From a virus, in the IMG/VR virus record IMGVR_UViG_3300031963_000205, positions 1 to 53,360 of that record: a stretch of DNA of 53,360 nt, one strand, 5' to 3'. How positions within the stretch are numbered: the stretch's first letter is position 1; each line of letters starts with the position of its first letter. Of the stretch, positions 21,440 through 44,796 are shown piece by piece. The translations under genes were made by a program, and so were the position numbers. The notes beneath the pieces were generated by a model, which was not told the origin of the DNA, did not search any database, and was given only the letters and a program-made list of their open reading frames with translations.

Positions 21440-22073
21440 ATGCGTCAAATTCTCCCGTAGAAACAAGAGATAACTCTATCGTCTCTTTAAGTAGGTCTGC
21501 TGTAATTGACACCATTTCTTCTGTTATCTTTGGGTCATTGTTGTTTTTCTGCCTTATCAGATCAAAGAACATGTCAAACATCAAAGAAAAATTATTTATA
21601 GATTCATTTAAAAACTGTCCTTGAATATCTATGTGGCATAGATTTTTCTTTTTCTTTGACTCAAGTATATCAAATTCTTTTAACGTGTCTGACAACATCA
21701 TTGGCACAAAAAAAGTCCCAACTACAAATCCAGTATCGTCATCTATTAGTTTATCTATTTGCCCTGTTTCAATAGGGTATTCTTTTTTTATTTCATCTGA
21801 TGAGTTTTCTATTTTTTTATTTGGTGATTTGTTTTTTATAGATTTTATTACGGTCTTTACCTGGTCTAGCAAATGCTGAACTACGAATGGTCGAGGTTCA
21901 TCACTTTCATACACTTTATCAAACCTTTTTATTATTTCGCCTACCATGTAGGCATGAAGAAGGTCATATTTGTCCAGCCCCTTGATAGGAGAGACAGTTG
22001 TTTCAAAAGAAAAGACGGCGCTAAAAAAACTATTTTTATAGTCAGTAGCTAAAATAAAGTTGTCTTTTTTCAT
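21411..22073 (-). CDS. Hypothetical protein, 220 aa
   Basis: A 220-residue protein first in its operon and coupled to the AT-hook gene. It opens with a compact hydrophobic segment (FILATDYKNSFFSAVFSFET), followed by helices and a lysine-rich polar linker (about 90-115). A second helical block includes FNESINNFSLMFDMFFDLIR written as LNESINNFSLMFDM. No catalytic motif or transmembrane helix. A long inverted repeat sits just upstream of its start (22088-22136). No family recognised. Confidence 0.68.
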   Translation of the reverse strand: MKKDNFILATDYKNSFFSAVFSFETTVSPIKGLDKYDLLHAYMVGEIIKRFDKVYESDEPRPFVVQHLLDQVKTVIKSIKNKSPNKKIENSSDEIKKEYPIETGQIDKLIDDDTGFVVGTFFVPMMLSDTLKEFDILESKKKKNLCHIDIQGQFLNESINNFSLMFDMFFDLIRQKNNNDPKITEEMVSITADLLKETIELSLVSTGEFDAYAERKNQKK

Positions 22074-22087
22074 AATGTTTTGTTTTA

Positions 22088-22136
22088 ACCTTTGTAATTA
22101 AATTATTTGTCAAAATAAATAATTAATCACAAAGGT
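22088..22136. repeat. Imperfect inverted repeat upstream of the 220-aa gene, likely operator
   Basis: ACCTTTGT (22088-22095) pairs with ACAAAGGT (22129-22136), and the AT-rich interior (AATTAA-ATTATTT against AAATAAATAATTAAT) continues the pairing almost to the centre. It lies 15 bp upstream of a start codon, as an operator or mRNA hairpin would. Confidence 0.55.
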
Positions 22137-22217
22137 ATATATATCTTACACATTTTTTTAATTTTTCAAAAAAAATAGCATTTTGCTGTTTTTATTGAGT
22201 TATCTTAACGCCCCATA

Positions 22218-22254
22218 CGTATATACTATAAGGACAAACCTTATAGTATATACG
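22218..22254. repeat. Perfect 16-bp hairpin in the 22.1-22.3 kb gap
   Basis: CGTATATACTATAAGG (22218-22233) and CCTTATAGTATATACG (22239-22254) are perfectly complementary with a five-base loop. Outer CGCC/GGCG bases can add more pairs. There is no T tract on either side, so it is not a standard terminator. It lies about 55 bp past the stop of the 123-residue membrane gene. Confidence 0.6.
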
Positions 22255-22309
22255 CATAAATATGGCGGTTATTGAGACTCTGCTGTCTTAATGACAACTG
22301 GCGTCTTCA

Positions 22310-22681
22310 TCAGTTTAACTGATGAAGCTTCGTCAGTTTCGCAAAGATCGATTTGACATCAGCGACATTGAATTTCGATTCTTTTACAGTGTCCTCAGAA
22401 ATAGTTTCACTGATCACAGTGTCTGTTCCTGAAGCCGTAAACGATTTCAATTCCTCCAGCTCCCGATTGCGCCGTTTTTCTTCGAATAGCTCACTGAGTT
22501 TGCTGGCTTTATTTTTAACTTTCTCTGCTATGCAGATTCCTGCGCCAACGGCCCACAAGGTGGTAGCCACCCCGATTGCCGTTTTAGCTGTGGACACCCC
22601 TACTTGTAAGGCATACTTACCTACAATTGGAGCATTTTTAACCGCGAATTTTGTTGCTGTATTCGTTACCTGACTAAGCAT
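22310..22681 (-). CDS. Small protein with a hydrophobic glycine/alanine-rich segment
   Basis: A 123-residue protein. Residues about 14-52 are hydrophobic and rich in Gly, Ala and Val (VGKYALQVGVSTAKTAIGV, ATTLWAVGAGICIA), giving at least one probable transmembrane helix. The rest is charged: a basic-acidic helix (KVKNKASKLSELFEEKRRNR) and a Ser/Thr-rich tail. The stop codon sits in the loop of an 11-bp palindrome (CTTCATCAGTT/AACTGATGAAG, 22305-22327). Membrane association is likely; function is unknown. Confidence 0.68.
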   Translation of the reverse strand: MLSQVTNTATKFAVKNAPIVGKYALQVGVSTAKTAIGVATTLWAVGAGICIAEKVKNKASKLSELFEEKRRNRELEELKSFTASGTDTVISETISEDTVKESKFNVADVKSIFAKLTKLHQLN

Positions 22682-28650: not shown

Positions 28651-31410
28651 TTAGTTTATTTCGTCTATGTTGTATACTCTTACTGAATCGGCTATAATTG
28701 ATTTTCTGTCGTTATATACATTAATTTTACCTGTTACCAATATTACTTTGTCGATATTGATATTGTCTTTTACCTGTTCATACATCTCGGGAAAGCATGT
28801 AATGCTAACCTGAAACTCTTTGTTCCCAATGTCAATGAAACACATGTCCTGACCTTTTTTAGTCTTTATTTTTTTGACTGCCAGGATTATTCCAGCTGTT
28901 TTTACTGTATATCCTTCGTGTGTTAGCATTACCTCTGGTATGTCTATGCATGAGTTCATTCCTTTGCTAATGAAATAATCAACAACGTCGGGACTCCCTA
29001 TGCATAAGCTCTTGCTCTCTAAAATATCAATTTCGCCTTTAGATAGCACCTTACTAGTTTTCTCTCCCCTGAGAATGTTATACTCATGGATTAAGTTATT
29101 TCTTGTCTCAACCTTATCTTTCGATTTTACAGTGGCCAATTTATCTAAAGCACCAGCAAAGATCAATGCGTTAACAACTCTCTTATTTACTACTTTTTTG
29201 TCAACTCTGTCAAAAAAGTCTTTGAGGCTAGAATACGGGGCTTTCTCAAAAACTTCTTGGGAGGCATTTTTTACCCCCTTCACCATAGTCAATGGATACA
29301 CTATTTTTTTATCTGAATCATCTATGATGTAGAAATCTACCTGGCTGATGTTTACATCGGGTAACTTTACTATTTCAGAAAAGTATTTAGCGTTTTGAGC
29401 TAGGTCTTCGTGATTTGAGTTTTGAAGAATAGCCGTCCACCACTCTAGCGGGTAATGAGACTTTAGCCACATACAAACATATGCCATATACGAATAAGCA
29501 ACGCTATGGCTTAAGTTGAACGCGTAATTACTACTAGACCTACATAAACTGACAAAAGCGGATATTTGCGTGGCATCCCACCCTCTATCTTGGAGCCTCT
29601 TCCTAATGTCTGGAAGAATCTCGTTCATTTTATCGAGTTTTTTCTTTCCTATTATCTCTCTAATCTCGTCGGCTTGCTCTGGGGAGTACTGACAAGATTT
29701 TTGAAACATCGCAGATATTTGCTCTTGGAACAAAACAATGCCATGTGTATTAGAAAGTATATCTTTTAGGTCTTCGTGTAGATAAGAGACTTCTTTTTTA
29801 CCCTGCCTTCTCTTTACCCATAGATCTATAAGTGTTGTTGTTTCGTCTTCTTGTTCGTCATACATCAACGCATACATTGTGCCTGGTCTGCAAGCAGCCG
29901 TAATTGCGGCTAAATCAATTATACTGCTAGGCTTTATCTGTCTGCACACCTTGGTTGGTACGGGACCATTAAATTGGAATACCGTTTCTGTTTTACCTTT
30001 GCAGAATTCTTTAAACACAATTGGTTCTTCTGGAACGTTGTATATATCGATTTCTCTGTTGTGTCTTTCTTTAATCAGTCGTATGCAGTTACCGATGTCT
30101 TTAAGTGTATTTAATCCAAGTAGATCAAATTTAATCAACCCCATCGATTCCACAGCCTCCATTGTAAACTGCGTGCATTCTTCCTCTCCAATTCTACATA
30201 CTGGTACAATTTCATTAATCGGTACGTCAGATAGGCAATAAGCACTAGCGTGACGACCAAGTGATTTTGGAATACCAATAATCTGTTCCACCAAGGATTG
30301 AACGGAGGGATGCTCATCAAAGAAGTTATATAGAGATTTATTTATTTCTAATTCTCCAGCGTGGTGACCTTCTTCGTCATCCCATCCATGCAGCCATTTT
30401 AAGAGATCGCTAAATCCTTGTGGAACATTGTTTATGGTCTTGCAAACCTTGTCCACCATCAATTTATTGGCCTCATTAAATTTGGTGTCTAGTATCACCC
30501 TGCTTACGTCTCTAATTGCGCTCTTTACTTTATTTGTACCGGTAGTGCAAATTCTTACAAATTTATCTCCATACTTGGATTTTAGTGCCTCAGCTATTTT
30601 ATCTGGTTCACTAAAGTCTATGTCTATGTCGGGAAGCTTTCCTCTGTTTATTCGACCAGAAGACAAGAATCTCTCAAACGATAAGTTATATTTAACTGGG
30701 TCGATGTGAGTAATTTTAAGTAAGTAAGCCAAAAGGCATCCACCAGCGCTGCCTCTTCCAGCACCAATCCATATTCCTAGTTGTCTAGCCTGTTCACAGA
30801 TTTCATAGAGAGATAGAAAATACGGAAGTAGATTTATCTTTCCATTATTAGAAATAACTTGGATCTCTTTGTCCAATCTATTTCTATATTCTTCCGTATT
30901 TTTCATTCTTCCATTGCTATCTATCAAGCAATAAATTAAATTTTTTAATTTATCTTCATAGGAGGTAGAAATTTCTATCACCTCTCTTGGGAAAGAAACT
31001 TCTGGTAAGTGATATTTCTTCTCTAGGGATATTTGTTCGCACAAACCAGCAAGATTGTGGTTGCTTTCTACTCCTTCCTGGAAGTGGCTTGAAAAGCTTG
31101 TTCCATGAAGTGATAGCCACTTTTCCCATGCCTGGTTTGAACTCATTTGATAGTACTTAGTGCTAAACCTAAGTCCACTATCTTCATCTCTGCCATTTTG
31201 CAATAAAAGATCTTGCACCATTTTTTGATCTTTGTTCACAAAGTGTGCGTCAAGAGTTAACAATATTGGAATATTGTGAGCTCTTGCTATTTTCATAATT
31301 AATTCATTGCCTGATTTCTGGAAGTCGCCAGTCGGTGCAGTCTCTGTGCATTCTTTTCTCAGAAATATCGGAGAACTTGTGTTTCTCCACGTAGATTGTT
31401 TTACTCTCAT
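28651..31410 (-). CDS. dnaE: DNA polymerase III alpha-like subunit, polymerase part
   Basis: A 919-residue C-family DNA polymerase lacking the N-terminal PHP domain, which is encoded by the gene just upstream. Residues 21-60 (TETAPTGDFQKSGNELIMKI, LLTLDAHF) resume the end of the PHP region. Then come the palm motifs GAGRGSAGGCLLAYL at 216-230 and PDIDIDF at 260-266 with catalytic D263 and D265, followed by the fingers and the (HhH)2-like region. A C-terminal OB-fold (AGIILAVKKIKTKKGQDMCF, VILVTGKINVYNDRKSII) ends the protein. It would replicate the phage genome together with the separately encoded PHP fragment. Confidence 0.93.
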   Translation of the reverse strand: MRVKQSTWRNTSSPIFLRKECTETAPTGDFQKSGNELIMKIARAHNIPILLTLDAHFVNKDQKMVQDLLLQNGRDEDSGLRFSTKYYQMSSNQAWEKWLSLHGTSFSSHFQEGVESNHNLAGLCEQISLEKKYHLPEVSFPREVIEISTSYEDKLKNLIYCLIDSNGRMKNTEEYRNRLDKEIQVISNNGKINLLPYFLSLYEICEQARQLGIWIGAGRGSAGGCLLAYLLKITHIDPVKYNLSFERFLSSGRINRGKLPDIDIDFSEPDKIAEALKSKYGDKFVRICTTGTNKVKSAIRDVSRVILDTKFNEANKLMVDKVCKTINNVPQGFSDLLKWLHGWDDEEGHHAGELEINKSLYNFFDEHPSVQSLVEQIIGIPKSLGRHASAYCLSDVPINEIVPVCRIGEEECTQFTMEAVESMGLIKFDLLGLNTLKDIGNCIRLIKERHNREIDIYNVPEEPIVFKEFCKGKTETVFQFNGPVPTKVCRQIKPSSIIDLAAITAACRPGTMYALMYDEQEDETTTLIDLWVKRRQGKKEVSYLHEDLKDILSNTHGIVLFQEQISAMFQKSCQYSPEQADEIREIIGKKKLDKMNEILPDIRKRLQDRGWDATQISAFVSLCRSSSNYAFNLSHSVAYSYMAYVCMWLKSHYPLEWWTAILQNSNHEDLAQNAKYFSEIVKLPDVNISQVDFYIIDDSDKKIVYPLTMVKGVKNASQEVFEKAPYSSLKDFFDRVDKKVVNKRVVNALIFAGALDKLATVKSKDKVETRNNLIHEYNILRGEKTSKVLSKGEIDILESKSLCIGSPDVVDYFISKGMNSCIDIPEVMLTHEGYTVKTAGIILAVKKIKTKKGQDMCFIDIGNKEFQVSITCFPEMYEQVKDNINIDKVILVTGKINVYNDRKSIIADSVRVYNIDEIN

Positions 31411-31435
31411 ATTTATATAAATTCTATATCAATGC

Positions 31436-32287
31436 TTAATCTATTACTATTTTTCTTGGCATTATCTTTTGACAGCCTTGATCATCTTCTGAGTCAATAG
31501 ATTCATCTTCGATAGTTATTATCCTATCTGAAAGCGGCATATCTTGAGGTCTGTTTGTAATTGCTGAATAGATTTGAGACACTTTTTTTTCAAACGCCTC
31601 TTTTACAGTTATGGAACCAATCTCAGTTTCGATTATATCTGATCCAGAGAATGTATAGGTTATGCCATTTTCGTTGTCAACTTGGTAAATGTTTTTAGTT
31701 GTCCAATCTCTATCTACAGAGTGCGGCATAACTTCTGCAAACAATTTATCTCCAAATATGTCCATCAGTCTACACGCATTATAAGTGGCCATATCTTTTT
31801 CCATTCTTAGGAATGGTTTAACTATTGGCCCCTCGATGCATCCAGTTCCACATATAATACCATCTCTATATGACTCAAGGTCTTCCCATATTGCCCTTGG
31901 CTTTGGTTGACCAAATTTTTTTACAACTCTTCCGTGCCCCCATGAGCAATTAGAAATTGATAATAAATTATCATATCCAGTTTTATTTGCTGCCCACAGG
32001 GTCAAATGAAAATAATCAAATTTCTTTAAGTTTTGGTTATATATATATTCTGAATGTGGAGCTAGATAAATCTCAATTCCTGGAATACCCTTAATTCCAG
32101 ATTCTTTAGTTTTTGTTATTAGATCGTATAGACCTAGTACATATCCATGGTCAGTGCAACTACATGCATCAATATTGTTTTGTTTGCAGTATTTTATGTA
32201 CTGATCTATGTCAGACACCCCATCCATAAGACTGTATGTCGTATGTGTATGGAGTGGCAGTATATTTAATTTCGTTGGATTATTCAT
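31436..32287 (-). CDS. dnaE: DNA polymerase III alpha-like subunit, PHP-domain part
   Basis: The N-terminal half of the same polymerase, 283 residues from the ATG at 32287 (MNNPTKLNILPLHTHTTYSL). An upstream in-frame extension reads into structured non-coding DNA and is rejected. The PHP motifs are intact: H13-x-H15 (LHTHTTYS), CTDHGYVLG and PGIEIYLAP, then FAEVMPHSVDRDW. The last 90 residues (NGITYTFSGSDIIETEIGSI, then VKEAFEKK) do not match DnaE and end in a stop codon. The partner gene starts 25 bp further on. The tail has a faint resemblance to Hint/intein strands, but without a catalytic cysteine. Confidence 0.85.
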   Translation of the reverse strand: MNNPTKLNILPLHTHTTYSLMDGVSDIDQYIKYCKQNNIDACSCTDHGYVLGLYDLITKTKESGIKGIPGIEIYLAPHSEYIYNQNLKKFDYFHLTLWAANKTGYDNLLSISNCSWGHGRVVKKFGQPKPRAIWEDLESYRDGIICGTGCIEGPIVKPFLRMEKDMATYNACRLMDIFGDKLFAEVMPHSVDRDWTTKNIYQVDNENGITYTFSGSDIIETEIGSITVKEAFEKKVSQIYSAITNRPQDMPLSDRIITIEDESIDSEDDQGCQKIMPRKIVID

Positions 32288-32291
32288 TTTA

Positions 32292-32648
32292 AAAATTTCT
32301 GCGTAGAAAGGAGCGAATTGCCGGTTGCGCACTGCGGGCGCTCCGGCTCCACGGGCGTGCGGTCTGAGGTGACCGTAGGTCACCTCAGTTAGCAACCCGT
32401 GGATAGCCGGATGGGGCCCGATGGTGTGGAACCGGCGAGAGATCCGCTTACGGCCTGTACTTACAGGCGTCCAAGACCTGATCGCAGCCGCTCCAGACGG
32501 GGACCTTCAGACCTACCGGGGGTAGGTCTGAAGACCCGCTGTGAGGGGCGTAGATCGTGATTTTCTATGACGCCACAGTGCAGGCCTTACATTGACTAAA
32601 CTGCAATGATGAAAGTTGCACAACCGTGCAACAAAAGCCAGAAATTTT
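32292..32648. ncRNA. Structured tandem unit 1 of 3 (357 nt), novel RNA or DNA element
   Basis: A GC-rich, non-coding unit closed by a perfect 10-bp terminal helix: AAAATTTCTG (32292-32301) with CAGAAATTTT (32639-32648). Inside are an 11-bp hairpin CTGAGGTGACC/GGTCACCTCAG (32364-32388) and a 13-bp hairpin CTTCAGACCTACC/GGTAGGTCTGAAG (32505-32533). Longer-range pairs include CCACGGG/CCCGTGG and GCCGGTT/AACCGGC. Near the 3' side is a 7-bp hairpin GTTGCAC/GTGCAAC (32615-32632), then AAAAGC before the closing strand. This plan is shared with units 2 and 3. No reading frame in it is convincing. Strand is undecided. Confidence 0.62.
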
Positions 32649-32662
32649 CTTATATTTTATTC

Positions 32663-33055
32663 AAGTTCTGCGTAAAACTCGTAAGAGTTTGTAACTGGTG
32701 GCCGTACACCGTGCCATACTGTGAGGGCCCTGGAGCAGAAGCTCCCCGGTGAACGCCGTGACCCAGACACGTAGAGAACCGGGGCGCGAGGCTCCAGGGC
32801 CCTACAGTGTTGGCACGGTTGGAAGGCCGCGCACGCACGAGTAGGACGTGCCCAAAGGAAGGTCGTCTGGGGAGGCTCCTCCACCTCGGCAGGGCCTAAT
32901 GGGCCTGCCGGGTGGAGTGAGCTCCCCTGACGAATTCCGTGGGCACGATCCAGCTCGTGTCGTGGCGGACCAGTTACTCTGGTGCCTCAGGACACCACTT
33001 ATATGTACGTGACATAATAAAATGACAGAAACCTTCTGTCTAATAGCCAGAACTT
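32663..33055. ncRNA. Structured tandem unit 2 of 3 (393 nt), novel RNA or DNA element
   Basis: Closed by AAGTTCTG (32663-32670) and CAGAACTT (33048-33055), an 8-bp helix differing from unit 1 by a compensated pair. Inside are AAACTC-GTAA-GAGTTT (32675-32690), a hairpin with a GNRA-type loop on the plus strand, and a long arm CCGTGCCA/TGGCACGG (32709-32818) containing AGGGCCCTGGAGC/GCTCCAGGGCCCT (13 bp). A further arm is CGGCAGG/CCTGCCG within CCACC/GGTGG and GGGGAG/CTCCCC. The conserved terminal hairpin is GACAGAA/TTCTGTC (33024-33040), followed by TAATAGC and the closing strand. Confidence 0.62.
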
Positions 33056-33063
33056 TTTATAGT

Positions 33064-33361
33064 AATAAATTTTTGCGAATGAGTCCTGAACTGGCCCGGT
33101 TGGGCTGCCTGGTGCAACCAGGCTGCCCACCGGGTGGTTCAGGACGGTTTCCTCCCCTCGCGGCGGAGTACAATTCTTCAGTAATGCGCCGCTGCCTGCA
33201 AATTCCGGGTTAAGGCTGCACTTGTGCAGCCGGTACCCGGTAATTTGCAGGTCTGCAAGCGTTTACTGAAGAATTACATGACGCCTGCTATCTGCGAGCG
33301 TCGAGTTGCTATAAGCATTTTAAAAAGATGGCAATCTGCCATCAAAAGCCAAAAATTTATT
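33064..33361. ncRNA. Structured tandem unit 3 of 3 (298 nt), novel RNA or DNA element
   Basis: Closed by a perfect 12-bp helix AATAAATTTTTG (33064-33075) with CAAAAATTTATT (33350-33361), sharing the unit 1 layout but with U-A in place of C-G pairs. The first arm is GTCCTGAAC/GTTCAGGAC (33083-33145) enclosing CCCGGT/ACCGGG and GCCTGG/CCAGGC. The second is AATTCTTCAGTAA/TTACTGAAGAATT (13 bp, 33172-33275) enclosing CCTGCAAAT/ATTTGCAGG, CCGGGT/ACCCGG and GGCTGCAC/GTGCAGCC. The conserved terminal hairpin is GATGGCA/TGCCATC (33327-33343), followed by AAAAGC. It ends 7 bp before the stop of the next gene. Confidence 0.62.
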
Positions 33362-33367
33362 TATTCT

Positions 33368-36027: not shown

Positions 36028-36559
36028 AGTTTTCTTTTATGTATTTATTTGTTGAGGGGTTTGACTTTAATTCTGCAATTGCAGTGCCTGTATATTTTTT
36101 TAGTTTATCGAAGATGTTATCAGAACAAAGCAATACTCTTGTGTATGATTTTATTGGTAAAAAATCTAACAATAAAACATCGTCCAATTCTTTTTCCTTA
36201 TTATTTGGGTTATTTAAATAATTATTTAGTATTCTTATTTCATTCTCGAACTCCATTTGACCAACTGTTTCACCTTTTTCTAGGTATTGACTGAAGATTG
36301 TCATAGAGCGCTCGCCACATAGCTGAGATGGAAATGGAATACCTCCCCATTTCTCGAACAAACTCTCCAAATAGAGAACGGGGCATATGTTTTTTTGTTT
36401 AAGTGTGTTTGCTAGTTTTATCCAGCAATCATCAAATTTTGTTCCAGATTTATATCCTGGTGTCGATCTTCTTCTAAAAATTTCGTATATTTTTTTTATG
36501 TTCCATGGTGTTATGTTTTCTTGCTGGCTTTCGTTTGTTGCCATTTTAGCTCCTTTCAA
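35888..36559 (-). CDS. Hypothetical protein, 223 aa, extending over the helicase start
   Basis: A 223-residue protein directly upstream of the helicase. The N-terminal part is basic (NIKKIYEIFRRRSTPGYKSG), followed by a helical core (DCWIKLANTLKQKNICPVLY, ERSMTIFSQYLEKGETV) and a conserved-looking stretch (FLPIKSYTRVLLCSDNIFDK). The last 45 residues overlap the helicase coding sequence in another frame and are Arg/Ser/Glu-rich (GSQRREDVPIRRRPS). A helicase-loader role fits the position (T4 gp59 and DnaC lie close to helicases), but no motif proves it. Confidence 0.65.
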   Translation of the reverse strand: MKGAKMATNESQQENITPWNIKKIYEIFRRRSTPGYKSGTKFDDCWIKLANTLKQKNICPVLYLESLFEKWGGIPFPSQLCGERSMTIFSQYLEKGETVGQMEFENEIRILNNYLNNPNNKEKELDDVLLLDFLPIKSYTRVLLCSDNIFDKLKKYTGTAIAELKSNPSTNKYIKENYVSRYIRLFPQRISKSINSEYNEIPEPSSGSQRREDVPIRRRPSNT

Positions 36560-38251: not shown

Positions 38252-38614
38252 TTAAGCGGGTTTCAGGATTTTGATCCACTCAGATACATACCATTTTTTT
38301 CCCTGTGCATCTGGTCTTTCAAATTCCTTGTAGTTACATATTTCTACATGAAACCATTTTCTATTTTTCTCTGTCAGGTGTGGAGCATTCGGCGTCATGC
38401 ACGAATGCCAACCACTCCTAAGCCTAAAACCATCGGTTGGCAAGCTTTTTGCTTTTATCCATTCACCAATTGGTATGCTGTTCTTTTTGTCAATAAAAAG
38501 TGGGTAAACCTTATCGTCAACTTTTTTTATCGACAGCAATTTGTATGCCTTCTTAGTTTTTGATATTGATATACCAAGATCTTTTTTTTTGTTTACCATA
38601 TAATTAAAATTCAA
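38252..38614 (-). CDS. Conserved phage protein, 120 aa
   Basis: A 120-residue basic protein resembling a family often found in phage genomes: a Tyr-Lys-Leu-rich start (KAYKLLSIKKVDDKVYPLFI), then PIGEWIKAK, a central RLRSGWHSCMTPNAPHL with a Gly-Trp-His core, WFHVEICNYKEF and GKKWYVSEWIKIL. The aromatic-rich, His-containing core suggests a compact ligand- or metal-binding fold. No biochemical role is established to my knowledge. It overlaps the SbcC-like gene by 11 bp. Confidence 0.78.
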   Translation of the reverse strand: MNFNYMVNKKKDLGISISKTKKAYKLLSIKKVDDKVYPLFIDKKNSIPIGEWIKAKSLPTDGFRLRSGWHSCMTPNAPHLTEKNRKWFHVEICNYKEFERPDAQGKKWYVSEWIKILKPA

Positions 38615-40397
38615 TGGTTTGTTTAAAATAAGGCATTAATGATCTCTCGTGAGTAACAATCAATGTTTGTAAATTGTTAGTGTCAGAAAGCTCAGAAATA
38701 CTTTCTATTATATTTTTGAAGTTCAATATAGTTTCTCTGTCTAACCATGTAGTCGGTTCATCAAGAACTATTAAATTTACTCCAGTTGTGAATATCTCTC
38801 TTGCAGCAAACCTAAATGCTAGAGATAGTACGACTTTTTGACCGCAAGACAAATCACTTGATGGTCTAACTTTGTTTCCAAAATCGCATATAAATTCATT
38901 GTCTTGACCAAGCTTTACATTATAAGCAGCACCAAATCTATTAAGGTATTCATTAATTGATTGAGACATCTTATTCATTTGATGATTTATATAAACTCCA
39001 CTCAAGCCGTCATGCCTGAATATATCTCTTATTCTGGAGATTCTTGAGTGATGCGTCTTTGTACCAGAGTATAAAAGCTTACTATTATTGGCTTTTTTAA
39101 GGTCTAATACGTGTGCATGTAGCTGTGTCTCTAATTTTTTATTTGTAGATTGAATTAAATATATTTCAGACTCAAGTTTTTGGATACTTGAGGTAACATT
39201 ATTATAAAAGTTTATACCGTCTTGATATTTATCTGGAGAATGAGATGGAAACGATTTGCTATCAAATTCTTTTTTTTTGCTATCAAGTAGCTCATTACTA
39301 TTAGAAATAGTTTTAAGTAGTTGCTTTTTTTCTACTTCATAAGTAGATACAATACGATCAAGTTGCCTTAATTCTTTTTTGTATTCATTTGATTTAAAAA
39401 TATTTTTGTCTATGTCTTGTCTGAGCTTTCTCTCTCTCTCCCTAAAATCATCTAGGTTCTCTGATCCTACGGTAGAGTTGCACAAAGGGCATTCTGTAAT
39501 TGACCCACCATCGTGCTTTAAGAATACTTGTAATATTTCTAGTTCGTTTTTTTGAGCGCCAATCAGTAGATCTATGCCTTCTGAAGACTCTTTTATTCTT
39601 TGAATTTTATCTATATCAATTGTAGGTTTAACTAGCAAGCTGAGTTCTTTCTCTGAATCTGCCAATTGATTTATTATTCTGGATATTTCTTCAGATAATC
39701 TGTCTTTCTTCAGTGAATCAGAGTAATTCTTAGTTATTTTATTGAAATCTATTCCATCTATAGATTCCTTTAGTTCTATTATCTCGGACATCTTTGATTG
39801 TACAGAATTATTATTCTCATCAATCATTGACCTTATGCTTGATATAGCGTTTTTTGCTTGGTCTTCATCTATAAGGGCTGGGTACGATATATTTCTGTGC
39901 CATGACGTCAATGCATCGTCCAAACCCTCTAACCTTTGTAGACCAAAAAACTTCCTAAGTGTTTTATTTCTCTCTGCAACACTTCCAAACAAAACCCCTA
40001 GAATATCTGTCTGGCTAACAAAAACCATATTTGATAAAAAAGATTTTTCGCATCCAAGTAATTCTAGAACCCTTTCATTTACTGAATCAGCTCCCTCAAT
40101 TTCTTCATTATTATATTTTAATGTGCACTGGTTACCGTGAAGAGATCTACTTATGGAAAAATTGTTTCCATTTATATCTCCCTCAACGAATATATCGCCA
40201 GTCTTTTCTCCAAACGTTATAAGATCCTTCTTCTTCTTTTTGCCGAACTCGCCAGTCATAGCGATTGAAATGGCGTTTGCAAAATTACTTTTGCCTGAAC
40301 CATTTTTGCCAACTATTCCTATTATATTTTCTTCAAATGAATGCTCCACTCTCTTGTGTTGAGCAAAGTTATTCAGAATCACTTTTGATACTTTCAT
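38604..40397 (-). CDS. SbcC/Rad50-like (gp46-type) exonuclease ATPase subunit
   Basis: A 597-residue ABC-type ATPase that partners the SbcD-like nuclease. The P-loop G30-K-N-G-S-G-K-S37 lies near the N-terminus (IIGIVGKNGSGKSNF). Two coiled-coil arms surround a Rad50 zinc hook, ECPLCNST, at about residues 301-308. The C-terminal lobe has the signature DLSCGQKVVLSLAFR and Walker B LIVLDEPTTWLD (about 540-551). In T4, gp46/gp47 resect DNA ends for recombination-dependent replication and host-DNA breakdown. The overlap of 29 bp with the SbcD-like gene supports a stoichiometric complex. Confidence 0.94.
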   Translation of the reverse strand: MKVSKVILNNFAQHKRVEHSFEENIIGIVGKNGSGKSNFANAISIAMTGEFGKKKKKDLITFGEKTGDIFVEGDINGNNFSISRSLHGNQCTLKYNNEEIEGADSVNERVLELLGCEKSFLSNMVFVSQTDILGVLFGSVAERNKTLRKFFGLQRLEGLDDALTSWHRNISYPALIDEDQAKNAISSIRSMIDENNNSVQSKMSEIIELKESIDGIDFNKITKNYSDSLKKDRLSEEISRIINQLADSEKELSLLVKPTIDIDKIQRIKESSEGIDLLIGAQKNELEILQVFLKHDGGSITECPLCNSTVGSENLDDFRERERKLRQDIDKNIFKSNEYKKELRQLDRIVSTYEVEKKQLLKTISNSNELLDSKKKEFDSKSFPSHSPDKYQDGINFYNNVTSSIQKLESEIYLIQSTNKKLETQLHAHVLDLKKANNSKLLYSGTKTHHSRISRIRDIFRHDGLSGVYINHQMNKMSQSINEYLNRFGAAYNVKLGQDNEFICDFGNKVRPSSDLSCGQKVVLSLAFRFAAREIFTTGVNLIVLDEPTTWLDRETILNFKNIIESISELSDTNNLQTLIVTHERSLMPYFKQTIEF

Positions 40398-41523
40398 CTA
40401 GTTCCTTTTTTAAATCACTCATTAATATTTGTTTTACAAATTCTGGTGTAGAATTTGTCCATATATCTTCAACTATTTTGAAGTCCCTCAAATCTAGTGT
40501 TTTTTCTTTTTTCGCAAGATTTAGAAACTGTGCGTCATTATTGAAACAACTTGTTTCGTTAATGTCCGTCTCACCTGACTCTACCTTTTCTTTCTTGAAT
40601 ACGTTTTTATGGAAGTAGTAAACGCTGTCAGCGAGCAATTCATTTGATTTTATTTTATCTATAACCGTCATTACGTCTGACGACTTATCTGGGTCATATC
40701 TAAATATGTTAAAATCACTTGAACCCATTATTTTTTCTATACAATCTGTACTCGACTCAAAGTTAAAAATGTTTGTACTCTGATGCGGTGTATAAGGAAC
40801 AGATGTAATAGACTCAATTGATGATTTTTCGGAGTCATATATAAGTGATATGTATCTAAAATTATTATACATATCACATAACCTCAAGAAATCCACATTT
40901 CCTGGATAGCATACCGTACATTCACCAATCTGCATTTTTTTATGAATATGTAAATCACCAAGAGCTAAATATTTACATTTTTTAGACAATAATGACATAT
41001 CATCCTCATCTAGTTCTGGCCTCATGATAGATGCCAAAAAATGACCAGCTGATTGATGCATCATTATTATATCCAGTCCATCTGGAATCTTGTCTATCTT
41101 TGTTTTTAGCTCAGACTTTTTTGTATGGCTAAGCCATACAATTTTAAGTGGAGACAGTTTTTCGTTTATAATGTATTTGGAGCCGGACTCATCTAGTTCT
41201 GATTCAGAGCTAAAACCCTCTTCATTTCCTAGATCAACCCACTGATGTTGACCTACCACCTTGTCATGATTTCCCGAGCAAGCAATAACCTTGCAATTAC
41301 TGTCCCACCAGATTTTACACATATCTATCCAGCATTTTACGTCATCTGGAGAGGGTTCGACAGAGTCGAACACGTCTCCAGCGACAATAACAAGATTATG
41401 TTTTAATGAAATTTCTTTTGCTATTTTTAAATTATTTTTGTAAGTATTTAATTTTCTTTTTGTTATTCCGTATTGGTAACTTCCTATGTGTAGATCCGCT
41501 AAGTGTGCGATTTTAATTTTCAC
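40369..41523 (-). CDS. SbcD/Mre11-like (gp47-type) nuclease subunit
   Basis: A 384-residue phosphoesterase-fold nuclease. Metal motifs are D10-x-H12 (HLADLHIGSY), G49-D50 (VIVAGDVFDS), G84-N85-H86-D87 (CSGNHDKV), MMHQSAGHF and ALGDLHIHKK. The C-terminal 150 residues form a capping region and a helical end that would contact the Rad50-like coiled-coil base. It is encoded immediately upstream of its partner and downstream of the collagen-tailed 180-residue gene. Confidence 0.94.
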   Translation of the reverse strand: MKIKIAHLADLHIGSYQYGITKRKLNTYKNNLKIAKEISLKHNLVIVAGDVFDSVEPSPDDVKCWIDMCKIWWDSNCKVIACSGNHDKVVGQHQWVDLGNEEGFSSESELDESGSKYIINEKLSPLKIVWLSHTKKSELKTKIDKIPDGLDIIMMHQSAGHFLASIMRPELDEDDMSLLSKKCKYLALGDLHIHKKMQIGECTVCYPGNVDFLRLCDMYNNFRYISLIYDSEKSSIESITSVPYTPHQSTNIFNFESSTDCIEKIMGSSDFNIFRYDPDKSSDVMTVIDKIKSNELLADSVYYFHKNVFKKEKVESGETDINETSCFNNDAQFLNLAKKEKTLDLRDFKIVEDIWTNSTPEFVKQILMSDLKKELDESIKSDSE

Positions 41524-41561: not shown

Positions 41562-42104
41562 TTATGGTATTCCAGGCGGCCCTATCGGACCAGGATCCCC
41601 AGTTACTCCTATGTAGCCTTCATTATTTAATTCTTCTGATGAAAAAATATTGGGAAGATCATTTTGTTCATTTATTACCTTAGTTATTAATGGTGCAGAC
41701 ACGGCATCAACCCTGAATACTTGATCAGACTCATAGTCGGTGTCAATCACTCTAACATTTATTGGTTCTATCTCGCCATCCGTCCTGTATATTGCGGAAA
41801 TACAACCATTTGAGACGTCAATTGTCAAAAAGGTTTTTTCTCCGTTTAACATAGATGAATGTGCCGATACTATTTTGGATTTAGGCAATTCTAATATTTT
41901 TCCAGGAACAAAATCTTTGTTTGAGTAATCCATTGAAACTATCTCAATTACTTGTCCAATGAATTTGTCGGGTGATTCACATTTTCTGTTTAGCACACGA
42001 ACAGAGCAGCAAACATTTCTTCCTGGTTGGTTTTTGGGTAATTGCAGCAACACATTGTCGCCAGGATTTATTTGTATTTCATTTTTCTTACTTTTCTTAG
42101 ACAT
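41562..42104 (-). CDS. Hypothetical protein with collagen-like C-terminus, 180 aa
   Basis: A 180-residue protein. It opens with a basic stretch (MSKKSKKNEIQINPGDNVLL) and continues as a beta-rich domain (NVCCSVRVLNRKCESPDKFI, TFLTIDVSNGCISAIYRTDG). The last residues, GVTGDPGPIGPPGIP, are true Gly-X-Y collagen-like repeats, cut off after five triplets. Such tails are typical of phage virion proteins, so a virion role is possible despite its place between recombination genes and the reverse transcriptase. No family recognised. Confidence 0.7.
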   Translation of the reverse strand: MSKKSKKNEIQINPGDNVLLQLPKNQPGRNVCCSVRVLNRKCESPDKFIGQVIEIVSMDYSNKDFVPGKILELPKSKIVSAHSSMLNGEKTFLTIDVSNGCISAIYRTDGEIEPINVRVIDTDYESDQVFRVDAVSAPLITKVINEQNDLPNIFSSEELNNEGYIGVTGDPGPIGPPGIP

Positions 42105-42119
42105 TAATATTTCTTATTT

Positions 42120-43751
42120 CTAATCCGCCGATATCTTCCTTCTATTGGAGATTGGAGGATTAATTATTGACAGCAAGCTAGACAATTTGTCTGCCTTGTG
42201 AGGATTTGCAGATGCGATAAAATTTATTTTACCTTTTATCTTTGAACATTCTGACAAAAACCTTAGTTCGTTTTGAATTAATCCATCTTTTATTTTGTCC
42301 TTTAGTTTTAATATTTCTGTCCTTACTGCCTCTACATACGCAGGGGCAATGGTTGGCTTACCGCTGTTCATTACGTACCCAAGTATCTCCATTCTACCGC
42401 CAGTACCAATTACTTTGCTTTTCTTTTTATTTAGTTCAAAACCATTCATGGATAAAATTTTTCCAACTTTATACATAAAAATATTTATGAATTTTTTACC
42501 GTGCCTGGTTGGCCAAGTAAAAGAAAGATCATCAGCATATCTAGAATAAACAGCTCCCTTTTCTTCGGATAATCTAGTTAAGCGATAGTCTAATAACTTA
42601 AAAGCTATATTTGTTATAACTGGACTAGCTGGAGATCCTTGAGGCAAAAAATAATCATCAAATTTTATTGATGGTCCTATGTTAAATAGATCCTTTATTA
42701 TTTTAAGTATTGTATCTTTGTTTACCCATTTCATTTCAAATGCATTGTATACGCATTTTTCAATGAACTCCGACATAAACAGTTTGAATATCTCGCGGTC
42801 CTTTTTTATGGCTTCTGTTATATTATATTGATTTAATTGCCCATGAATCGGAAATAAAACGCAAAAGTCCTGAAACGTACTTGGCCTTTCAGCTGCTGAA
42901 AGGCCAAGTCTTGGCCTTTCAGCTCCAAACACTTGGTGTTGTCTTTCTGTGCATACATAAGAACTTCTGGGATACAAATATGAATTTATTTCTTTTGATC
43001 CAATTGACTTTTCAATCAAAGATACTCTTAAATGATTAAAGTCAACAACAGAGCAGCAAATCAAGCTTATTAACTTCGATATATTTCGTTTATTTAATTT
43101 TATGCTGCAAACATCTATTATATTAGATACATCTTCTTCTATTATTTGATGTGCAAGCAATGAACTCTTTATTTGTTTTTCCGTAAAACTTCCGAAAAAG
43201 TTTTTCACATCAACATTGATTAATAATTCAGGTTTTTCATTCTTGAATAAATGAAGATTCACTGAATCCAAAGCAGACTTGTTTTTTGCGAATCCAAATG
43301 CATTTATATGTGGCTTAAACCTATTTAATTGTTCCGCAATTCCTGATTGAACCTGCTTTAGTTCGTCTTGTGGAGCTAAAATTACCCGGTGGTCTTCTTT
43401 TCTGGGTATAATGCACTCCTCTAGAAATGTGATTAACTCTGAAAAATATCTCATATGTTCAGCAGAGTTACTATCATATCCATAGAAAACATCCTTTAGC
43501 GTTTTACAGAATTTCTTAGAATAATTAGAAATATTAAACTCACTTAATATTTCTCGTCTAGTATCTTGTGACAAGCAATTAGTGAATTTTGCTAATTTGT
43601 GTATAAACTTGTTAGAGTTATTTGAATTAACATCTAAAAAGTTTGCCGCAAATTTCTTTTCAATACATATATTATTTTTTTTATTAAATTTTTTTGTTTT
43701 TTTAGGAATCAAAAATACTTTGTATTGTATTGCTTTATTCTGTGTCTTCAT
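42120..43751 (-). CDS. Reverse transcriptase, retron/abortive-infection-like
   Basis: A 543-residue RNA-directed DNA polymerase. A retron-like lead-in (RVILAPQDELKQVQSGIAEQ, then AFGFAKNKSALDS) precedes motif A, INVDVKNFFGSF with D171. Motif B is LPQGSPASPVITN (359-371), and motif C is the catalytic YADD at 395-398. Motif D/E regions include KKKSKVIGTGGRMEILGYVM. About 180 residues separate motifs A and B, roughly 100 more than in compact retron RTs; this insert contains a triplicated 13-bp repeat. At 543 residues it is longer than most retron RTs (about 320). No msr/msd-type element lies next to it. It is co-transcribed with the DUF3150-like gene, whose stop it overlaps by 17 bp. Confidence 0.9.
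   Translation of the reverse strand: MKTQNKAIQYKVFLIPKKTKKFNKKNNICIEKKFAANFLDVNSNNSNKFIHKLAKFTNCLSQDTRREILSEFNISNYSKKFCKTLKDVFYGYDSNSAEHMRYFSELITFLEECIIPRKEDHRVILAPQDELKQVQSGIAEQLNRFKPHINAFGFAKNKSALDSVNLHLFKNEKPELLINVDVKNFFGSFTEKQIKSSLLAHQIIEEDVSNIIDVCSIKLNKRNISKLISLICCSVVDFNHLRVSLIEKSIGSKEINSYLYPRSSYVCTERQHQVFGAERPRLGLSAAERPSTFQDFCVLFPIHGQLNQYNITEAIKKDREIFKLFMSEFIEKCVYNAFEMKWVNKDTILKIIKDLFNIGPSIKFDDYFLPQGSPASPVITNIAFKLLDYRLTRLSEEKGAVYSRYADDLSFTWPTRHGKKFINIFMYKVGKILSMNGFELNKKKSKVIGTGGRMEILGYVMNSGKPTIAPAYVEAVRTEILKLKDKIKDGLIQNELRFLSECSKIKGKINFIASANPHKADKLSSLLSIINPPISNRRKISAD
42880..42924. repeat. Triplicated 13-bp palindromic repeat inside the reverse transcriptase gene
   Basis: CTTGGCCTTTCAG at 42880-42892, its exact inverse at 42896-42908, and a direct copy again at 42910-42922. 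The frame stays open and encodes GAERPRLGLSAAERP. It lies in the motif A-B insert. Confidence 0.85.
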
Positions 43752-44796
43752 TAGAAATGTAAATATTTCTTCTCACTGAGGATACATTAACCTCTTGCTC
43801 GTTTTCATCAGTTTCTGACTCCTCAATCGCTTTTCTTATTACTGTCATGCGTTCTGGATTTTCTTGAATTTCTTCGACCTCTTTTTTAAGTGTACCAACT
43901 ATCCTAGTTAGACTTGCTTCAAGGTCCAGTGCATCCGAATCATTTTTATTCCAATTAGATACACGAGAAACAGCTTCACATGCATTATTGATGGTTTTCT
44001 CTACGTCTGGATCGTTAAACAAATTTATCTGTTTAAGCTCGTTAAGCCTTTTTGTAAAATTCGTTATAGAGTGCATCCTTACGTTTTGACCGCGAGTATG
44101 TTTTCTACCGCTTTGTATAACAGCTACAACATCTTCAGTTGCCTTTACAATATGCTCTCTTATTTGCATACCAGCCTGATATACAAGTTGCGCAGCTTTC
44201 TCTGATAAGTCATTTTTAGCATCTATAGCTATTTCAGTTATTTCTGTTTGTGCCCATGAATAAATAGTCCAAGAATAATTAAATTTTCTAGCTATTTCGT
44301 TTTCTGATGGGTAAAACTGATCCATATATCCAGAGTATTCTGGATATTTTTCATTGAATTTATTTATTTGTTTTTCCTTGAGTCCTGGATACTCTTCTCT
44401 AAAGATTTCTACTTCCTTATTGAATCTCTGTTTCTCGGAGTTTAAAAAGTTCTTTAAAGTAGGGTAATAATCTTTTGGTACAAACCTAGACCCCTTTAGT
44501 CCTGGTACCCTATAGCAAGACCTATCAAGTAAATTATTTAATTTTGTTCTATATACAGAAAACTTAGACATTTTTTTTACTGGGATCAAATACTTGAAAC
44601 CAGGAGTATAAATTGTATTATCTGTATCTATTCCAAGAACCTGTTGATCGTCTTCTGTTTGAGTTAATTTAGCCTCCCATCTGCTAATTGTAACGTTTAT
44701 CAAGACACCATGTTTAAAGATGTCAGAAGACAGTTTTTGGGCCCAAGATATTTCGTTGTTAGATTCCTTTATTTGTTCTGCTGTTATTACGCTCAT
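43735..44796 (-). CDS. DUF3150-like protein, 353 aa
   Basis: A 353-residue helical protein whose layout matches DUF3150, a family seen next to MoxR/AAA ATPases. The lead segment HGVLINVTISRWEAKLTQTE is typical, followed by a 'Leu-Gly-Asp' region, a Lys-Pro turn (KGSRFVPKDYYPTLKNFLNS) and long helices (QRFNKEVEIFREEYPGLKEK, AQLVYQAGMQIREHIVKATE). The C-terminal 80 residues are acidic. Identity to the family is my recollection of its pattern. It lies 3.6 kb downstream of the AAA ATPase operon start and directly upstream of the RT gene. Confidence 0.6.
   Translation of the reverse strand: MSVITAEQIKESNNEISWAQKLSSDIFKHGVLINVTISRWEAKLTQTEDDQQVLGIDTDNTIYTPGFKYLIPVKKMSKFSVYRTKLNNLLDRSCYRVPGLKGSRFVPKDYYPTLKNFLNSEKQRFNKEVEIFREEYPGLKEKQINKFNEKYPEYSGYMDQFYPSENEIARKFNYSWTIYSWAQTEITEIAIDAKNDLSEKAAQLVYQAGMQIREHIVKATEDVVAVIQSGRKHTRGQNVRMHSITNFTKRLNELKQINLFNDPDVEKTINNACEAVSRVSNWNKNDSDALDLEASLTRIVGTLKKEVEEIQENPERMTVIRKAIEESETDENEQEVNVSSVRRNIYISNEDTE

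Follow-up and report, generated by a model that had tools for sequence, protein, structure and literature searches.

Retrons are the described systems closest to the locus reported here. As set out in PMC6868368, a retron RNA is closed by an end helix of ~8-30 bases whose inner end holds the priming G within UAGC or variants of it, and its msr carries one to three hairpins of 7-10 bp with 3-10-nt loops, located 5' of the long msd hairpin. Among the validated retron reverse transcriptases (RTs) covered there, 14 of 16 carry NAXXH in region X, the other two being substituted at N, and 14 of 16 carry VTG at the start of region Y, with two single-letter variants (PMC6868368). Retron-Nex1 (Ne160) of Nannocystis features several apparently duplicated msr-msd sequences and has no RT within a kilobase (PMC6868368). 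Retrons have also been described in phage genomes: they lie in anti-phage gene hotspots of P2-like phages and P4-like satellites (PMC9122126), in phiR73 (PMC6868368), and in further phage genomes and prophages (PMC8867640). Here we analyze a virus record of 53,360 bases from IMG/VR (IMGVR_UViG_3300031963_000205), the whole of which is referred to as the window, and describe three tandem structured units that share much, and not all, of this anatomy.

Tandem structured units among replication genes

According to the ORF list, the long ORFs of the window lie mostly on the minus strand, and genes for a DnaB helicase, a DnaG-like primase, a PHP-domain protein, and the Pol III alpha subunit stand in a row. 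The units occupy the interval between a gene for a 104-aa protein and the PHP gene (31436-32287). A preliminary description of this DNA, made from the letters alone, had named a PHP gene and a winged-helix gene as the flanks; the PHP neighbor stands, but profile searches returned no HTH family match for the 104-aa protein, which leaves the winged-helix label unconfirmed. The Pol III alpha gene is separate from that of the PHP domain (28651-32287 for both), as it is in the related contigs G002-G005.

Unit 1 (357 nt, 32292..32648), a proposed retron-like RNA template (msr-msd), adjoins the PHP gene and is followed by unit 2 (393 nt, 32663..33055) and unit 3 (298 nt, 33064..33361), all assigned to the minus strand. 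When both strands of the 53,360 bases were scanned for the motif (stem)TGCG...AGCCA(stem') with at least four further complementary bases, exactly three matches were obtained, which are units 1-3, and the lengths first proposed for them were confirmed to the base. The closing helices are perfect and have the sequences originally given. On the minus strand, the helix of unit 1 comprises 10 bp (5' arm 32639..32648, 3' arm 32292-32301), with an a1-like 5' arm followed by GC on the gene strand, that of unit 2 comprises 8 bp (33048..33055 and 32663-32670), and that of unit 3 comprises 12 bp (33350..33361 and 33064-33075). An msr-like 7-bp hairpin (P2), likewise on the minus strand, is present at 32615..32632 in unit 1 (loop GGTT), 33024..33040 in unit 2 (loop GGT), and 33327..33343 in unit 3 (loop GAT). 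The preliminary description had read this frame on the plus strand, with CG next to the helix on its inner side, a 7-bp hairpin toward the opposite end, and a linker ending in AGC, and these elements are seen in all three units; we instead take the gene (minus) strand as the RNA strand.

Each unit was also folded separately, with a few flanking bases, on the plus strand. The resulting z-scores of -12.2, -15.3, and -11.7 for units 1, 2, and 3 were equaled by none of the 100 shuffles generated for each, and the minus strand of unit 3 gave a z-score of -12.9. The unit region ranks first in a 250-nt fold scan of the window and in the same scan of the relatives G001, G003, and G004; the second rank in G001 is an AT-rich repeat region. 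As the preliminary description had it, the interval is GC-rich (51-58% in the units vs 30-45% in the other 1-kb windows of the stretch) and holds no credible gene, with ORFs of at least 60 aa within the region reaching 75 aa at most. In each of the eight units that were drawn, the predicted body contains more than one long rod; based on the unit lengths, the bodies measure ~180-450 nt from the 7-bp hairpin to the end helix.

Large folded RNAs, some of which occur in phages, include ROOL, GOLLD, OLE, HEARO, and group I and II introns. At the gathering threshold, Rfam matched just two tRNAs in the window, and no retron, ROOL, GOLLD, OLE, HEARO, or group I/II family. Searching the unit region up to an E-value of 5 gave 12 matches, none of them to ROOL, GOLLD, OLE, HEARO, or group I/II introns; the permissive searches returned no retron RNA family and weak, mostly microRNA-like matches, which we read as a reflection of the long hairpins. 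A known Rfam class was accordingly set aside for the units, given that none appeared at gathering level in the window and that permissive matches were weak. The preliminary description, which did not consider retrons, had stated that the elements could not be matched to a known class; this holds for Rfam, but orientation, architecture, and the RT of the operon favor a retron-like template, such that the earlier interpretation is partly supported overall.

Shared frame and divergent bodies

Relatives of the window were collected from IMG/VR by protein and motif searches. Two contigs belong to the window's own phage and do not count as separate lineages: G001 (L006), a 131-kb contig near-identical to the window, and G007 (L012), a further contig of nearly the same phage. 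The other unit-bearing lineages are G002 (L007), with flanks ~83% identical to the window at the DNA level, G004 (L017/L018), with a polymerase 75% identical to that of the window, and G003 (L009), with a polymerase 68% identical. At the same gene junction, G002 and G004 each carry three units and G003 carries two. Unit 1 has counterparts in L006, L007, and L018 and, by position, also in L009; unit 2 has one in L007 and, by position, L018; and unit 3 has one in L007 and, by position, L009 and L018. The set comprises 11 units from four lineages, with nine distinct end sequences; two L007 ends equal those of the window over the stretch used.

The junction in G005 and G008 (polymerase 63-68% identical, best segment) contains no units and has in their place ~100 nt with short hairpin structure, and the motif scan found no units in L021. 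Scanning more distant relatives, including three prokaryote-genome loci that are distant polymerase relatives, revealed no convincing unit, and elsewhere in the scanned pieces of G001-G005, G007, and other loci there were just isolated weak pairings with 3-7 extra bases. A DNA similarity search of named phages gave no match. The G007 contig starts within the long rod of unit 1 (L012:1), which suggests that assemblies may break at these hairpins, leaving similar units hidden in other data sets.

All 11 units display the same order on the gene strand: an a1 arm ending in TG, GCT plus 3-5 bases, the 7-bp hairpin, the body, CG, and an a2 arm led by CA. The hairpin lies 6-8 nt after the end helix and has a first pair of G-C in every unit, with a loop of 3-4 nt (GAT in six units, GAA and GGTT in two each, and GGT in one). 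Nine units have an end helix of 8-13 bp and two have one of 7 bp. The inner end of the helix reads UGGC in all 11 units, a motif that the search required. This frame resembles that of retrons such as Ec86, Ec67, and Eco8, in which a G followed by C likewise stands at the inner end of the end helix; the end helix falls within the ~8-30-base range in nine of the 11 units, and in all 11 the short-looped 7-bp hairpin, which precedes the long hairpins on the 5' side, agrees with the description of the msr. However, retrons usually have UAGC, and the UGGC seen here lies outside the variants listed in PMC6868368.

We evaluated covariation across the nine distinct end sequences, using 14 pairs from the closing helix and the 7-bp hairpin (126 cells) and 500 shuffles. 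Pairing is retained in 125 of 126 cells, and the sole exception is a loop-length shift in the alignment. Both sides have changed in 11 of the 14 pairs (39 cells), one-sided changes number zero, and sliding the partner by 1-3 columns lowers pairing to 29-53%. Four of five covariation measures lie beyond all 500 shuffles, and the fifth, which concerns further pair types, was reached by 115 of them. The end helix was selected for, because units were found through the motif together with end-helix complementarity; the 7-bp hairpin played no part in that step. Among 2,101 TGGC sites in the sequence pieces counted, 14 have a 7-bp hairpin this close after them, three of which are the units of the window and some of which are copies of one place. 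These homologues back the original proposal of a family of large structured elements that combines a fixed frame with divergent bodies.

Few of the predicted base pairs within the units are G-U: 38 of 1315 for the gene strand and 61 of 1361 for the opposite one, vs 12.0% in shuffled units and 10.7% in other stretches of the window. Such rarity is expected if pairing in the body helices has to hold in the RNA and also in its complementary DNA. The two frame helices, which contain zero G-U pairs, fall outside this argument because they should stay RNA. In 10 of 11 units the plus strand has the more stable fold, unpaired bases on that strand are 60% purine, and isolated 1x1 mismatches on the gene strand are A-C in eight cases and G-T in two. 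Read alone, the strand test says that a plus-strand nucleic acid does the folding. The better fold of the plus strand fits an opposite-strand RNA equally well; this RNA, which the test first favored, is kept as a rival because a cDNA made from the proposed RNA would be of that strand too. Both the few wobbles and the better plus-strand loops would be accounted for by a template that has to fold as RNA and again as its DNA copy.

The bodies diverge beneath this frame. A comparison of the window with L007 gives 85-100% identity for the end pieces and 63%, 53%, and 68% for the bodies of units 1, 2, and 3, vs 50-52% for shuffled bodies (54% for the top single shuffle). At this level of identity, the body of unit 2 is nearly unalignable, and those of units 1 and 3 retain some similarity. 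The window and G001 differ at 12 positions, seven of which lie within the 1,080 bases of the unit region, all in unit 1, and five in the other 52,280 bases. Between the window and G007, one of 11 differences falls in the units, over 840 unit bases, such that the excess of unit changes rests on one comparison. The seven changes relative to G001 include an A-U pair that became G-C via both sides, and the others affect loops, mismatches, and wobble positions. Across them, the plus-strand energy shifts from -201.8 to -207.9 kcal/mol, whereas 300 random mutants with seven changes in the same segment average -187.0 kcal/mol and reach -203.3 kcal/mol at best; the gene-strand energy shifts from -181.6 to -185.6 kcal/mol, with the mutant control covering the plus strand.

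The operon reverse transcriptase and its neighbors

On the minus strand, the window encodes a 543-aa RT with YADD (42120..43751; RVT_1, 6.6e-16) that is nearest to retron RTs. A gene for a 353-aa DUF3150-domain protein (43735..44796, minus strand; PF11348, 5.5e-11) overlaps the start of the RT gene, and a gene for a 180-aa protein with no significant family match (41562..42104, minus strand) lies downstream. Both proteins are proposed partners of the RT, and neighboring candidate partner genes constitute a further likeness to retrons. The best PADLOC models are RT_XIII (161 bits) and RT_III-A (156 bits); the best 25 of 46 matches are all to RT_ or RT- models, labels that we take to denote retron types, and two say 'retron'. 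Among the first 14 of 24 PDB matches, 12 are named retron, with Ec67 (7.5e-18), Ec86, and Eco8 among them, and two are named just 'RNA-directed DNA polymerase'. NCBIfam models all scored below their curated cut-offs, with retron_St85 at 116.5 bits (cut-off 235), group II at 57, and Drt2 at 37. A group II maturase-type RT, at 57 bits vs a cut-off of 300, thus ranks under the retron models, and the NCBIfam matches to the RT include no model for a diversity-generating retroelement.

All three RTs that we aligned contain YADD. At the position of NAXXH they read SVNLH, CANYH, and CANFH, with N lost and H kept in all three and A kept in two, and at the position of VTG they read ILG, ILG, and IVG. 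Whereas most validated retron RTs have VTG and NAXXH, the RT described here is without VTG and without the N of NAXXH. Predicted structures were of low confidence (mean pLDDT 46 for the RT and 49 for the 180-aa protein). At ~42879-42909, the RT gene contains, in frame, an inverted repeat of 15 perfect bp around a single-base spacer (ACTTGGCCTTTCAGC..GCTGAAAGGCCAAGT); the G003 RT lacks the segment in which it lies, and that of G004 can be aligned to this segment just poorly. Near the RT cassette, at 38604-41523, are genes for SbcC/SMC-like and SbcD-like (metallophosphoesterase) proteins. Nucleases of the SbcC/SbcD type act on DNA hairpins, which makes a link to the proposed DNA products possible.

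The distance between RT and units is 8.8 kb in the window and, as determined from locus ranges, ~8.6 kb in G003 and ~8.4 kb in G004. The window and each of the four contigs with both parts carry RT and units on one strand. RVT_1 matches are present in G001, G003, G004, and G007; G002 and G005 gave none. The RT is therefore present in three of the four unit-bearing lineages, and the contig of the fourth (G002) is cut upstream in the helicase region. In three lineages, the RT, DUF3150, and 180-aa genes occur together with units, and they are jointly missing from G005, which is largely syntenic and retains genes for an ATPase, SbcD, SbcC, a DEAD helicase, DnaB, primase, the 104-aa protein, PHP, polymerase, and RecA. 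A 120-aa gene at 38252 is absent from G005 too, and no counterpart of an 88-aa ORF at 36546 was detected in G003-G005. DUF3150 occurs in 4 of 17 contigs, with the RT in 4 of 4; G017, the further RT contig, which is of another phage, is without DUF3150. Among 11 further contigs, an RT is present in one (L067), which was fetched for its RT, and in none of the 10 that were found through polymerase or PHP. The polymerase tree gives the branching of G003, G005/G008, and G004 plus the window without resolution (support 81/88), which leaves room for either a gain in a single ancestor or a loss of the parts together, and the co-presence may rest on one evolutionary event. L067, a 204-kb phage contig, encodes a 284-aa RT of a more ordinary retron type (L067:9974-10828), in which NALPH, YADD, and VTG are present and whose gene directly follows a putative ThiF/E1-like gene and a putative JAB-like gene.

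Proposed retron-like templates and competing explanations

Based on the orientation and architecture of the units and the retron-type RT in the operon, a retron-like RNA template is the best reading. We assign a probability of roughly 0.6 to the units being such templates, located on the minus strand and used by the divergent retron-type RT of the operon. The locus also departs from retrons in several respects. Retrons form one compact contiguous cassette, whereas here the RT lies 8.8 kb off in a phage replication operon; the msd of retrons is a single long hairpin, whereas these bodies of ~180-450 nt are predicted to form several rods; and retrons have one template per RT, whereas here there are two or three non-identical ones. 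Because a single cassette, a single msd hairpin, and VTG are missing, we propose that the locus works like a retron and do not claim membership. Ne160 is alike in having several msr-msd sequences, but these are described as duplicated repeats and not as a phage case, whereas the units reported here are non-identical and have an RT in the same operon. The retrons of P2-like phages and P4-like satellites generally have single templates. Those retrons sit in anti-phage hotspots, whereas the parts described here have DnaB, DnaG, PHP, and Pol III genes around them and include templates in tandem. A literature search on phage-encoded retrons, retrons with multiple non-coding RNAs, and DUF3150 found no paper in the collection covered, which is no proof of absence from print.

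The analysis shows the architecture, the covariation, the RT family, the co-presence, and the divergence of the bodies; transcription, use of the units by this RT, the priming site, the DNA products, and the role are inferred. If the units are retron-like templates, the replication operon and all three of them would be transcribed together on the minus strand. The RT, whose gene lies 8.8 kb upstream, would probably recognize each one by the common frame, which consists of the end helix, UGGCU, and the 7-bp hairpin with its GAT, GAA, or GGT(T) loop. The G located at the helix's inner end would serve as the priming site, and the rod-bearing body would be copied into hairpin-rich single-stranded DNA of at most ~310, 350, and 250 nt for units 1, 2, and 3, such that a single RT would make two or three different branched DNAs in trans. 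As a weak guess, these DNAs could serve as decoys or effectors during the phage's own replication phase, working with the DUF3150 and 180-aa proteins in phage replication and diverting host DNA-end or hairpin sensors or competing phages; we lean toward such a role because the parts sit among replication genes. More broadly, and tentatively, the locus might represent a phage-specific class of retroelement in which one RT acts in trans on several standing templates to yield a set of different, unusually large hairpin DNAs. The bodies of this class would turn over rapidly by pair-preserving change, and the system would form part of the phage's replication-phase program instead of a stand-alone defense cassette.

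Strong folding and covariation would also characterize a large structured RNA of a new class with no relation to the RT, which could be transcribed with the operon or from the opposite strand and could serve as a decoy, a scaffold, or an mRNA processing element between the primase and polymerase genes. Consistent with an antisense RNA, the plus strand is the better-folding one in 10 of 11 units and its loops are rich in purines, and the units have no Rfam match to a retron. We nevertheless consider this explanation unlikely, because the frame fits retron anatomy in its order, its size, and the position of the G, a retron-kind RT occurs in three of four unit-bearing lineages with the fourth contig cut, and G-U pairs fall far under the 10.7-12.0% of controls. 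That scarcity of G-U pairs on either strand, together with the lack of one-sided changes in the frame helices, is what would be seen if the hairpins function as DNA, for instance as an origin, a primosome site, or a recombination signal, or are merely maintained, with template switching or inter-arm repair keeping the arms complementary and RNA being irrelevant. The location among DnaB, DnaG, and Pol III genes, with SbcC- and SbcD-like genes nearby, is consistent with DNA hairpins, as is the finding that 7 of 12 differences between the window and G001 fall in 1,080 of 53,360 bases, two of them forming one compensated pair. However, DNA hairpins fail to predict the invariant UGGC, a 7-bp hairpin invariably at the same end with a GAT, GAA, or GGT loop, or the co-presence of the RT, and the single unit difference among 11 from G007 indicates that fast change is not found in every comparison, which makes this explanation decidedly unlikely.

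The terminal inverted repeats, the tandem arrangement, and the break of the G007 contig within unit 1 could also point to functionless remnants of repeated insertion or of a hairpin-rich mobile element, or to an assembly artefact. We find this scarcely credible, because units occur at the same junction in four lineages and different IMG/VR records with their frame helices kept by covariation, the seven changes between the window and G001 keep or improve the plus-strand fold relative to 300 random mutants, and the scanned contig pieces contain no convincing unit elsewhere.

If the units do act as retron-like templates, the picture of a retron as one template and one RT in a compact cassette would be broken, and a retron-like system would be placed among the core replication genes of a virus. 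The locus would also offer natural cases of one RT accepting several templates with a small common frame, which would assist in working out which RNA features a retron RT requires. Since the bodies diverge under a fixed frame, in one comparison even between near-identical phages, what the DNA hairpins do could be tested directly. Elsewhere in the window, at 22040-22320, an AT-rich stretch has strong inverted repeats, including a perfect one of 16 bp (CGTATATACTATAAGG...CCTTATAGTATATACG), and a DNA fold z-score of -7.6; this stretch is possibly an origin or terminator region.
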